64,000 nucleotides of DNA from assembly GCA_002951995.1 (NCBI GenBank), contig CP019797.1, positions 1,348,501 through 1,412,500 on the forward strand, read 5' to 3'. Below the pieces are notes generated by a model. It had not been told where the DNA came from, ran no database searches, and saw only the letters and a program-made list of their open reading frames with translations. Origin of the DNA: Stenotrophomonas acidaminiphila (lineage in GTDB: Bacteria > Pseudomonadota > Gammaproteobacteria > Xanthomonadales > Xanthomonadaceae). Both the position numbers and the translations under genes were made by a program. Below, piece by piece: positions 1-25,423 of the stretch. How positions within the stretch are numbered: position 1 is the stretch's first letter; each line of letters opens with the position of its first letter.

Positions 1-199
1 AGGCATGCGGCCGGGAGCTGCGGTCGGCCAAGCCAGCAGGACCCTCTTCCCGGTACCGCTTCAGCCACTTGTAGGCCGTGCGCACGCTCACGCCAGCTGC
101 ATGGGCGGCCTCCGCGATGCGCAGGCCCTGCACGAGGATGCGGTCCACAAGCAGGGCTCGACCGCGAGGCGTCAAACGGGCATGTTTATGCAGGTTCAT
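1..199 (-). CDS. IS481-family transposase, N-terminal part (runs off the window)
   Basis: The start is the ATG at 197-199 on the minus strand, equivalent to the start at 23160 in the other copy. About 66 codons are visible and translate exactly as there: a basic N-terminus followed by the helix-turn-helix typical of IS481 transposases (motif AGVSVRTAYKWLKRYREEG). The window ends just before the position where the second copy changes reading frame, so this copy cannot show whether that frameshift is real. It would bind the element's ends during transposition. Confidence 0.85.
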   Translation of the reverse strand, partial: MNLHKHARLTPRGRALLVDRILVQGLRIAEAAHAAGVSVRTAYKWLKRYREEGPAGLADRSSRPHA

Positions 200-281
200 C
201 CGGGGCTCCTGGGGCTGGGTTGGTGTCGTAACCCCCATCTTCCAGCGATGCCCCGGATGAACAACCTACTGAGAGATCACA
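1..281 (-). mobile_element. IS481-family insertion sequence, left part only (cut by window edge)
   Basis: Reading the minus strand from 281 inwards, the sequence repeats the start of the complete element at 23077-24098, beginning with the same TGTG terminus. The only difference I find over the shared 281/282 bases is a run of four C here against five C in the other copy, just upstream of the transposase start. The flank at 282-287 is GCTAGT, which fits the NCTAGN target known for IS481. The other end lies outside the window, so the target duplication cannot be confirmed. The two copies are in opposite orientation. Confidence 0.93.
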
Positions 282-21652: not shown

Positions 21653-23020
21653 ATGACTTCGTACCAGACCCTCAACCCCTTCGACGGCCGCGTCCTGCGC
21701 ACGGTCGAGCTGATGAGCGCCGTCGCCGTCGAGCAGCGGCTGGCCGCCGCGCAGGCGGCGTTCCCGGCGTGGTCGGGCCTGCCGCTGGCGCAGCGCGGCG
21801 CGCTGCTGCGCCAGGTGGCCGCGGCGCTGCGCGCGCGCCGCGACGAGATCCAGCACGCGATGACCCGGGAAATGGGCAAGCTGCGCGGCGAGGCGCTGGC
21901 CGAGATCGAGAAGAGCGCGGCGGCCTGCGAGTACTACGCCGACCACGCCGCCGCTTACCTCAGCCCGCAGCCGATCGCGACCGAGGCGCAGCGCAGTTAC
22001 GTGGTGTACCCGCCGATCGGCTGCGTGCTGGCGGTGATGCCATGGAATTTCCCGATATGGCAGGTGTTCCGCTTCCTGGCGCCGTCGCTGATGGCCGGCA
22101 ACGTGGCGCTGCTCAAGCACGCCAGCAACGTGCCCGGCTGCGCCGACCTGATCGCCGCGGTGCTGGCCGATGCCGGCATGCCGGCCGGGGTGTTCGGCGT
22201 GCTGCACATCGACAACGAGCAGGCGGCCGCCGTGCTGCGCGATGGCCGGGTCAAGGCGGTCACCCTGACCGGCAGCGAGCGTGCCGGGCGCTCGATCGCC
22301 GCCAACGCCGGCGACCAGTTGAAGAAGTGCGTGATGGAGCTGGGTGGCAGCGACGCCTTCGTGGTGCTGGACGATGCCGACCTCGACGCCGCCGTCGCCG
22401 CGGCGGTGAAGTCGCGCTTCGACAATGCCGGGCAGACCTGCATCGCCGCCAAGCGCTTCGTGCTGGTGGATGCCATCGCCGACCGCTTCGTGCAGCGCTT
22501 CGTCGAGGCGGCGAAGGCACGGGTGTACGGCGACCCGCAGGACGAGGCCACCACGCTGGCGCCGCTGGCGCGCGCCGACCTGCGCGACGGCCTGCACCGG
22601 CAGGTGCGCCAGAGCATCGACCAGGGCGCCCGGGCGTTGCTGGGCTGCGAGCCGCTGGCCGGCACCCATGCCGGCTACCCGGCGTCGATCCTCGACCACG
22701 TCGCGCCGGGCATGCCGGCCTACGAGGAGGAGTTGTTCGGCCCGGTGGCGGCGATCCTGCGGGTCAAGGACGAAGCCGAGGCGGTGCGGGTGGCCAACGA
22801 CACCGCGTTCGGCCTCGGCGGCAGCGTGTGGAGCGGCGATGCCGCCCGCGGCGAGCGGGTCGCCGCGCAGCTGCAGTGCGGCGCGGCGTTCGTCAATGCC
22901 GTGGTCAGGAGCGACGCGCGGCTGCCGTTCGGCGGCACCAAGCGCTCGGGTTTCGGCCGCGAACTGGCCGAGCACGGCATCCGCGAGTTCACCAACATCA
23001 AGACCGTCTACGTGGCGTAG
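21653..23020 (+). CDS. sad: NAD(P)-dependent succinate semialdehyde dehydrogenase, Sad/YneI type
   Basis: A 455-residue aldehyde dehydrogenase that would oxidise succinate semialdehyde to succinate, closing putrescine and GABA breakdown. Motifs: MPWNFPIWQVFRFLAPSLMAGN (about residues 126-147), LLKHASNVPGCA, catalytic Glu in MELGGSD, catalytic Cys in NAGQTCIAAKRF (about residue 263) and EELFGPVAAI. The Trp-Gln-Val wording and the LLKHASN segment match E. coli Sad (YneI) rather than GabD. Start at 21653 gives MTSYQTLNPFDG, the usual N-terminus. A 9-bp hairpin with a TT loop (23021-23040) follows the stop immediately. Confidence 0.9.
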   Translation: MTSYQTLNPFDGRVLRTVELMSAVAVEQRLAAAQAAFPAWSGLPLAQRGALLRQVAAALRARRDEIQHAMTREMGKLRGEALAEIEKSAAACEYYADHAAAYLSPQPIATEAQRSYVVYPPIGCVLAVMPWNFPIWQVFRFLAPSLMAGNVALLKHASNVPGCADLIAAVLADAGMPAGVFGVLHIDNEQAAAVLRDGRVKAVTLTGSERAGRSIAANAGDQLKKCVMELGGSDAFVVLDDADLDAAVAAAVKSRFDNAGQTCIAAKRFVLVDAIADRFVQRFVEAAKARVYGDPQDEATTLAPLARADLRDGLHRQVRQSIDQGARALLGCEPLAGTHAGYPASILDHVAPGMPAYEEELFGPVAAILRVKDEAEAVRVANDTAFGLGGSVWSGDAARGERVAAQLQCGAAFVNAVVRSDARLPFGGTKRSGFGRELAEHGIREFTNIKTVYVA

Positions 23021-23040: not shown

Positions 23041-23076
23041 AGGGGTCTTCCCGGTGAAGCCGCATGCGGGGCTAGC

Positions 23077-24098
23077 TGTGATCTCTCAGTAGGTTGTTCA
23101 TCCGGGGCATCGCTGGAAGATGGGGGTTACGACACCAACCCAGCCCCCAGGAGCCCCGGATGAACCTGCATAAACATGCCCGTTTGACGCCTCGCGGTCG
23201 AGCCCTGCTTGTGGACCGCATCCTCGTGCAGGGCCTGCGCATCGCGGAGGCCGCCCATGCAGCTGGCGTGAGCGTGCGCACGGCCTACAAGTGGCTGAAG
23301 CGGTACCGGGAAGAGGGTCCTGCTGGCTTGGCCGACCGCAGCTCCCGGCCGCATGCCTGCCCCATGCCACACCGTCAACCATCGCAGCGCAGATGCTGGA
23401 ACTGCGACGCTCACGCCAGACCTATCGCCAGATCGCCCAGCGGCTGTCCGTGGCGCCAAGCACCATCGCCCGGTTGCTGCGCCGTGCCGGACTGCACCGC
23501 TTGGCCGAACTGGAGCCGGCGCTGCCGGAGAACCGCTATGAACACGCCCGGCCCGGCCAACTGCTGCATCTGGACATCAAGAAGCTGGGGCGGATCGGTT
23601 CCCCGGGCCACCGTGTGACCGGTGACCGCTCGCATCGACACAGGGGCATTGGCTGGGAATACGTCCATCTGGCCATCGACGATCACTCGCGCGTGGCCTT
23701 CGCCTCCATCGAGCCGGACGAGCGCGAGACCAGCGCCTGCAAGGCCCTTATCCGCACGGTGCGCTACTACCGCAGCCTGGGCGTGTGCTTCGAGCGGGTG
23801 TTGACCGACAACGGCACCTGCTACAGGTCGCGCCGTTTCCAGCGCCTGCTCCGTCGCCTTGGCATGCGCCACCTGCGCACGCGTCCCTACACCCCGCGCA
23901 CCAACGGCAAGGCCGAACGCCTGGTCCAGACCAGCCTGCGCGAGTGGGCCTATGCCCGCGCCTATGACAACTCCGGGCAGCGGGCTGGCGCCCTCCATGA
24001 CTGGCTGCATCACTACAACTGGCACCGCCCTCATGCAAGCCTCGGCTACAAACCACCCATCTCCCGCATACCCCTGAACAACGTGCTGGGTTTACACA
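23077..24098 (+). mobile_element. IS481-family insertion sequence, complete copy (1022 bp)
   Basis: Both ends start TGTG when read inwards. The left inverted repeat (23077-23107) and the right one (24071-24098) share TGTG, CAG, the block GTTGTTCA and GGGG. The left terminus closely resembles that of Bordetella IS481 (TGTGA...GGTTGT). Length is normal for the family. It carries one transposase gene with an apparent -1 shift. It is bounded by a GCTAGC duplication and lies about 22.8 kb from the inverted copy at 1-281. Confidence 0.93.
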
Positions 24099-24103
24099 GC
24101 TAG
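23160..24103 (+). pseudogene. IS481-family transposase, apparent -1 frameshift; stop codon lies in the target duplication
   Basis: The first frame (ATG 23160, preceded by GGAG) encodes the helix-turn-helix; the second (to 24103) encodes the rest, including the RNase H-like core with HLDIKK, LTDNG and the NGKAERL glutamate (DDE triad). They join at CCCC (23360-23363): re-reading one C, or one missing C, gives DRSSRPHACP-HATPSTIAAQ, the family pattern, and a protein of 314 residues. The element ends at 24098, so the TAG stop (24101-24103) is supplied by the duplicated GCTAGC, not by the element. Whether the shift is programmed, real decay or a lost C in the assembly is open. Confidence 0.82.
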
Positions 24104-24118
24104 CCCCGCGTCTACGGT

Positions 24119-25423
24119 TCAGCCGAACGGCTGGTCGATCGACGGGCTCTGCGGGGTCAGCAGTTCGGCGCCGTCGGCGGTGATGTGCAGGATGTCCTCC
24201 AGGCGCACGCCGAACCTGCCGGGCAGGTAGATGCCGGGTTCGTTGCTGAAGGTCATGCCGGGTTCGAGCAGGCGGGTGTTGCCGCGGACCAGGTAATCCC
24301 ACTCGTGCATGTCCATGCCGATGCCGTGGCCGAGGCGGTGGCTGAAGTAGGTGTAGTCCGGGCCGTAGCCGGCATCGACGATGCGCCTGCGCGCGGCCGC
24401 GTCCAGCGCTTCCATCGCCACCCCGGGGCGCGCTGCCCGCAGCGCGCTGGTCTGCGCCTTGAGCACCACGTCGAACACGCGGCGGACGTCATCGCCGGCC
24501 TTGCCCAGCACCACGGTGCGGGTGATGTCGCTGGTGTAGCCGTCGGCCCGGCAGCCGCCGTCGAAGATGACCGGCGTGCCCTCGGTCAGCCGCTGCGGTG
24601 CATCCGAGCCGTGCGGCGAGGCGGCGGCGGGGCCGATGTTGACGTCGGCGCTGCCGCGCAGGCCGGTGCGCGCATACGCCAGGCTCACCAGCGCGGCGAT
24701 GTCGTCCTCGGTCATGCCCGGCGCCAGCGCCTTCCACACCGCTTCGTACACCGCCAGGGTGGTCTGGTTGGCCAGCCGCATCAGCGCCAGTTCGGCCGCG
24801 CTCTTGATGCGCCGGCAGCCGGCGGTAACCGGCCAGGCATCGACGAACGTGGCGTGGGGCAGGGCGTTCATGATCCCGCGGCTGCGGAAGAACGGCACCG
24901 TTTCCTCGATGCCGACCGTGCCGCTGGCGGCGCCGAAGCCGCGCAGCACCTGCGCGACCAGCGCGTAGGGGTCCTCGTCTTCCTGCCAGCCGCGTACGTC
25001 GCTGCCGAGTTTGATCTGCTCCAGCGTGCGGCTGCGCTCGAACGCCGGGGTCACATAGACCGGCTCGCCGGTGCGCGGCAGGATCACCCCGGTCAGGCGC
25101 TCGCTGTTCCACCAGTGCATGCCGGTGAAATAGGCCAGCGAAGTGCCGGCGCCGATGAACACCGCGTCGATCCGCTGCTGGTCCATCAGCGCCTGCGCGC
25201 GTGCCAGGCGCTGCACGCGCTCGTCGACGCTGATCGGTACCACCCGCTGCGCCACCGGCTGCAGCGCGCGGATCGACGCGGGCAGCGTCGGCGCATCGCC
25301 CTGGCCATCGGCGGCCAGCGCGCCGCCGGACTGGCCCAGCAGTGGCAGGGCCACCGCGCCGGCAGCCACCGAGCCGCGCAGGAAACGCCGGCGGCGGTGG
25401 TCGGAAAGGGTGTCGTCGCGCAT
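24119..25423 (-). CDS. M24 family metallopeptidase (Xaa-Pro type), Tat-exported
   Basis: 434 residues. The N-terminus has a twin-arginine signal (RRRRFLRG followed by a hydrophobic AAGAVALPLL stretch), so it is probably folded in the cytoplasm and exported. The C-terminal pita-bread domain has the five metal ligands: two Asp in FDGGCRADGYTSDITRT, His in HRLGHGIGMDMHE, Glu in NEPGIYLPG and Glu in VRLEDIL. The N-terminal creatinase-like domain (about residues 60-200) is present. Likely an Xaa-Pro dipeptidase or aminopeptidase; exact substrate unknown. The stop lies 14 bp from the IS target duplication; the gene is intact. Confidence 0.9.
   Translation of the reverse strand: MRDDTLSDHRRRRFLRGSVAAGAVALPLLGQSGGALAADGQGDAPTLPASIRALQPVAQRVVPISVDERVQRLARAQALMDQQRIDAVFIGAGTSLAYFTGMHWWNSERLTGVILPRTGEPVYVTPAFERSRTLEQIKLGSDVRGWQEDEDPYALVAQVLRGFGAASGTVGIEETVPFFRSRGIMNALPHATFVDAWPVTAGCRRIKSAAELALMRLANQTTLAVYEAVWKALAPGMTEDDIAALVSLAYARTGLRGSADVNIGPAAASPHGSDAPQRLTEGTPVIFDGGCRADGYTSDITRTVVLGKAGDDVRRVFDVVLKAQTSALRAARPGVAMEALDAAARRRIVDAGYGPDYTYFSHRLGHGIGMDMHEWDYLVRGNTRLLEPGMTFSNEPGIYLPGRFGVRLEDILHITADGAELLTPQSPSIDQPFG

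Follow-up and report, generated by a model that had tools for sequence, protein, structure and literature searches.

The target-supplied stop codon of an IS481-family transposase: probably a by-product of overlapping gene, element end and target site

The window, a 64,000-nucleotide stretch of the Stenotrophomonas acidaminiphila genome (CP019797.1), contains an insertion sequence whose transposase frame is still open at the end of the element. The first stop codon lies in the adjoining copy of the duplicated target. An earlier note read this as a coding sequence that is completed only upon integration, which would tie target choice to transposase expression. Does the target act as such a gate, or does the borrowed stop merely follow from the position of the gene? 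That the target supplies the stop is confirmed here, is common in the IS481 family and has been published before. With a probability of about 85%, it is a by-product of the overlap between coding sequence, element end and target and not an expression gate.

The element starts with TGTGATC at 23077 and ends with TTTACACA at 24098 (Table 1). The genes on either side converge on it: that of an aldehyde dehydrogenase ends at 23020 and that of an M24 peptidase at 24119. At the right end the sequence is GGT TTA CAC A/GC TAG C, the slash marking the element border. The C-terminal frame stays open through the last element base, and the TAG is wholly target sequence within the right GCTAGC, as the earlier note had stated. 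The coding sequence described there does reach this TAG with its C-terminal frame; it is no intact gene in the window copy, which is frameshifted. The frame from the ATG at 23160 departs from the family frame after about 68 codons, and the listed ORF therefore represents the C-terminal part only. A further copy of the element occupies window positions 1–281 on the minus strand. It is truncated by the start of the window, has no internal stops and is followed by the CTAG of its repeat at 283.

Table 1. Features of the insertion sequence and its flanks, in window coordinates
Feature	Position	Strand	Basis
IS481-family insertion sequence, 1022 bp	23077–24098	+	Sequence, inverted ends, copies in the same genome, profile matches
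Left direct repeat GCTAGC, target duplication	23071–23076	+	Identical to 24099–24104
Right direct repeat GCTAGC, target duplication, contains the stop codon	24099–24104	+	NCTAGN at this place in 9/9 copies of the genome
Left end (IRL) TGTGATCTCTCAGTAGGTTGTTCA	23077–23100	+	Inverted ends
Right end (IRR), overlaps the last transposase codons	24075–24098	-	Inverted ends
Transposase N-terminal part, up to the departure from the family frame	23160–23363 (end approximate)	+	Frameshifted copy
ORF with transposase C-terminal part (catalytic core), runs off the element	23291–24103	+	ORF list, profile and domain matches
Junction codon AGC, with A of element and GC of target origin; specifies the partly host-encoded last residue (S, T, N or I)	24098–24100	+	
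Stop codon TAG, target-supplied	24101–24103	+	Sequence, ORF list, copies in the same genome

Profile searches placed the transposase in the family named after IS481 of Bordetella pertussis. The IS481 profile NF033577 (cut-off 224) gave 309.8 bits for the intact copy L002 and, for the window copy, 243.8 bits on its C-terminal ORF. The N-terminal leucine-zipper/HTH domain of IS481 transposases (PF13011) scored 88.8 bits on L002; the window copy has this part in a different frame. D139, D217 and E253, which we take to be the DDE catalytic triad, are invariant across 25 aligned sequences. The element has the inverted ends 5'-TGT...ACA-3' and the short direct repeats of the family. The IS3 profile NF033516 (110.3 bits, cut-off 160) and the IS630 profile NF033545 (59.5 bits, cut-off 100) stayed below their cut-offs, and both families were rejected.

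The genome holds nine full-length copies, including the window copy, together with two short matches (43 and 47 bases). The trait of the CTAG group within IS481, an NCTAGN duplication whose TAG serves as transposase stop, was present in all nine: CTAG adjoins the left end in 9/9 and the right end in 9/9, and TAG occupies the same codon in 9/9. The two 6-bp repeats are identical in eight copies; in the ninth, L005, the outer bases differ. Three copies (L002, L003 and L005, L003 being the copy that the window start cuts) match as one piece without a stop within the matched stretch. Homology among the nine ends at TTTACACA, and the flanks beyond differ except for NCTAGN. This supports two proposals of the earlier note, a right end at 24098 and not past 24104, and NCTAGN as the target that supplies the stop.

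The note also expected every copy, in relatives too, to have CTAG at the right end and TAG at the same codon. For the nine copies of this genome, this held without exception. In the protein group of the window element, the right end was placed in 76 distinct copies, which include these nine and are kin rather than independent cases. Another 14 rows had no recognised right end (seven were cut near a contig end), and many more distant family members without placed ends entered no count. The stop position is expressed as first stop base minus last element base. CTAG was found in the right flank of 72/76 copies and a stop at +3 in 70/76, that is, 69 TAG and one TAA. By chance, TAG is expected at one fixed codon in about 1/64 of cases, compared with 69/76 counted among these related copies. 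L048 has its TAG at +3 with a TTAG flank, and L058 has TAA at a CTAA flank. The expectation failed at the stop in six copies. Four of them (L059, L062, L070 and L072) have a stop at +3 once read in the frame of the element tail, their odd values being due to a frame that was broken or wrongly chosen. In L065, unrelated sequence adjoins the right end and the frame runs to +87. L246 is a mis-set row among the 76, an ISKpn27-like element admitted by a loose identity cut-off. Repeats were identical on both sides in only 40/65 copies with a called left end, in part because some left ends were mis-set; the remainder suggest recombination between copies. In a Streptomyces relative (L080/L166), an own TAA lies about 24 bases ahead of the CACA/GCTAGG junction.

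The same reading phase recurs in other lineages. Of 17 rows in a second CTAG-targeting group, 16 had a placed end, and 15 of these had a stop at +3. Sampling of genomes around the Streptomyces genome G300, which was reached via locus L090, yielded 30 loci; eight were short-flanked and not counted, and five of the other 22 had no placed ends. A stop at +3 in CTAG was found in 15 of the remaining 17. The other two, L366 and L368, carry own stops 14 and 6 bases before the last element base, apparently as separate gains. Both belong to the actinobacterial lineages of that clade; the target is GGTAGC in one and CCTAGG in the other.

A tree built from 49 selected transposases (target- or flank-made stops in 39, own stops in 10) required at least four label changes, compared with a mean of 9.3 after shuffling. 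The window group and the actinobacterial lineages formed one well-supported clade, and the second CTAG group and the ISKpn27-like group formed another. Own-stop lineages, whose repeats measure 7 or 5 bases or were not found, sat on long branches of unsure placement. The shared phase looks old on the basis of these sequences, as it appears in most sampled CTAG-targeting IS481 lineages, proteobacterial and actinobacterial, and in the ISKpn27-like lineage. One old arrangement kept by descent and two such arrangements are both possible.

IS481 elements are thought to work by a copy-paste mechanism, according to the accessible part of the ISRe46 report (PMC6794481). The circle that such a mechanism may involve was assumed by the earlier note to encode a C-terminally extended protein. 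The junctions computed on L002 do not bear this out. The left end begins with TGTGA, which places TGA in the transposase frame when the two ends abut: a spacerless junction reads CAC ATG TGA and stops at the same codon as CAC AGC TAG. A circle that retains the 6-nt flank as spacer keeps the CTAG and its TAG. With spacers of 1, 3, 4 or 7 nt, the last element codon would be followed by 2 to 7 residues instead of one, and with 2 or 5 nt by 29 or 30. Scanning the retrieved loci for a joined-ends pattern produced 38 matches, none of them a convincing junction, an absence that says little in these loci.

CTAG is kept so strictly in the window group that the question of a gate is testable only elsewhere, in the ISKpn27-like sister group. 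The group takes its name from the plasmid annotation of sequences that share 92% identity with the query, and the counts come from whole-genome copies, not from clinical ISKpn27 copies. ISKpn27 and its relatives share with the window element the IS481 family, TGT...ACA ends, the same phase and the lack of an internal stop. They differ in a target relaxed to NNTANN and in about three of ten insertions being without the stop. After omission of 18 rows without a placed end and of three that belong to the second CTAG group, the set comprised 108 copies whose ends were placed. The main test used the 69 with identical 6-bp repeats and excluded the other 39. In 68 of the 69, from 17 genomes, the repeat was TA-centred.

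In this group the stop codon consists of TA and base 5 of the target. Base 5 was a purine in 48/68 copies, all of which stop at +3. It was a pyrimidine in 20/68, found in 9 of the 17 genomes, and here translation reads through: 16 copies stop 12 to 243 nt past the end, and four run beyond the available sequence, which makes the read-through 12 to at least 243 nt over all 20. The transposase ORF was open and near full length in 20/20 stop-less and 47/48 stop-bearing copies. Because a palindromic target can be entered in both orientations, the absence of selection predicts equal frequencies of a purine at base 5 and a pyrimidine at base 2. The observed numbers were 48 and 44 of 68, and no asymmetry was detected (18 vs. 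14 discordant, p = 0.60), in a test whose 32 discordant pairs limit its power and which is compatible with a modest bias (95% interval of the stop share 0.38–0.74). Pooled flanks leaned weakly towards stops (72/95 vs. 64/97, p = 0.15). Single genomes vary, for example 11/15 vs. 5/15 in G552, and copies that share a genome are only partly independent. Stop-less insertions are without detectable depletion among standing copies. The proposed tie between target choice and expression is not borne out where the target leaves the choice open: 20 of 68 insertions have no target-made stop, and their ORFs are as open as those of the others. Some stop-less copies may have been placed by the transposase of another copy, and their presence is no proof of a working tailed enzyme.

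Could the target-made stop still be a regulatory safeguard, with circles and off-target insertions giving a tailed, inactive or unstable transposase? The stop is supplied by the target in nearly all CTAG copies and the phase is common to deep branches, as such a safeguard would have it. Against it speak the left-end TGTGA, which stops an abutted circle at the same codon, the CTAG retained by a circle with a 6-nt spacer, the stop-less ISKpn27-like insertions with open ORFs and no asymmetry (20/68), and the two lineages of the CTAG clade that have own stops (L366 and L368). A gate is quite improbable on this evidence. Less probability still is left for mere accident, an element that happens to have no stop next to a CTAG that happens to be in frame. 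With CTAG beside the end and no internal stop, TAG would fall into one frame of three; the same phase is found in three protein groups and in the actinobacterial lineages, even if descent may leave few independent events (at least four changes among 49 rows). An artefact of delimitation, in which the true element is longer, has its own stop and includes the TAG, can practically be dismissed. CTAG stands at both ends of every copy in the genome and is easily mistaken for a part of the inverted repeats, but the outer bases of NCTAGN co-vary on both sides in 8/9 copies, the flanks diverge beyond NCTAGN, and the NNTANN repeats of the ISKpn27-like group vary at four positions.

The by-product reading thus remains the preferred one, because the abutted circle also stops and stop-less insertions persist with open ORFs in the sister group. 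It would work as follows. An IS481-family element inserts at NCTAGN and duplicates these six bases. The transposase presumably picks the palindromic, TA-centred target for reasons of its own DNA contacts. Its coding sequence passes through the right inverted end, with the last element base as the first base of a codon. The N and C of the target complete this junction codon (S, N, T or I), and the target TAG ends translation. With gene and DNA end overlapping at the 3' side, the element could do without its own stop wherever the target puts TA(G/A) in frame, and this absence may spare the short overlap of gene and end. The coupling between coding phase and target could then be maintained by passive use. 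In an AlphaFold model of the transposase (mean pLDDT 81.4, pTM 0.55), residues 310–314 had a pLDDT below 50. Such a low value weakly suggests that an altered tail may be harmless.

For the ISKpn27-like group, a stronger proposal can be made, which is unlikely. Each insertion would write its own C-terminus: base 5 would pick between the normal enzyme and a tail of 4 to more than 80 residues, and the target would be a one-time, per-insertion setting of transposase activity or stability. Searches for relatives of the group in viral contigs found none. A literature search, with most subscription journals outside its reach, found no report of variable ISKpn27-like tails among the papers listed.

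The proteins offer an independent check of the borrowed stop. A last codon A-N-C whose second and third bases belong to the target can encode only Thr, Ser, Asn or Ile. Among the best 120 of 7999 database relatives, including those of this genome, it was S in 53, T in 34, I in 19 and N in 14; the penultimate residue was His in 120/120 of the same set. The proteins P0001 to P0004 share 313 identical residues and differ solely in the last one. P0085, P0095, P0098 and P0100 form another set of this kind, whose members differ only at this position.

The target itself has features beyond CTAG. The empty site of the window insertion (23066–23076 joined with 24105–24109) puts the element at the exact centre of a 16-bp perfect palindrome, GCGGGGCTAGCCCCGC, between the convergent genes. 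The palindrome resembles a terminator stem, and the sites of L056 and L082 are alike. A preference for palindromes was considered and not adopted, as the trend over 40 empty sites was weak. Compared with 66 control CTAGs, the paired run was longer (p = 0.008), total pairs gave p = 0.08, and a run of four or more pairs was found at three empty sites and none of the controls (p = 0.05). The joined empty site folded only moderately better than plain shuffles (z -1.8), and the two flanks folded separately gave no signal. CTAG is rare in the whole window, with 10 occurrences observed against 37 expected from trinucleotides; three of these occurrences adjoin IS copies. Such rarity of the target may direct the element away from genes.

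Stop codons supplied by the target have been described before. The phenomenon was reportedly the subject of Fournier et al. 1993 on IS870, judging from the title. IS870 is an IS630-type element of Agrobacterium vitis. In the accessible text on ISLxc2 and ISLxx4 of Leifsonia xyli, the transposase stop codon lies within the host insertion site (PMC2516522). Both resemble the window element in family, NCTAGN duplication and stop in the host site; host and sequence are different, and ISLxc2 also has an in-frame stop near its start (PMC2516522). For ISRe46 of the transposon TnRErm46 from Rhodococcus equi, an IS481-family element reported in 2019, the available part of the report gives the same NCTAGN duplication and the TAG of the right repeat as transposase stop (PMC6794481). 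TnRErm46 differs from the window element as a 6.9-kb transposon with cargo, the ISRe46 ends are TGTTGCGG in comparison to TGTGATCT of the window element, and the left repeat of ISRe46 also ends some host genes (PMC6794481). The reservation in the earlier note, which did not claim novelty for CTAG-targeting elements, was justified by these two reports. The 6-bp consensus of IS481 from B. pertussis, compared here by its description in the part of the text at hand, is likewise NCTAGN, and one copy is located at CCTAAC; the transposase stop is not mentioned in that part (PMC3053399).

Because its last residue is partly host-encoded, one transposase is filed as up to four proteins. This residue is an addition to what the accessible parts of the published accounts of ISLxc2/ISLxx4 and ISRe46 describe. 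A coupling of this kind should not be taken for regulation unless circles and insertions that give no stop have been tested. The sister group, in which the stop is likewise missing and the target provides it in only some insertions, is the most useful new point. The ISKpn27-like group is a ready-made experiment on the tolerance of a transposase for host-encoded tails, and if each insertion does write its own C-terminus, the family would constitute a natural library of transposase tails.
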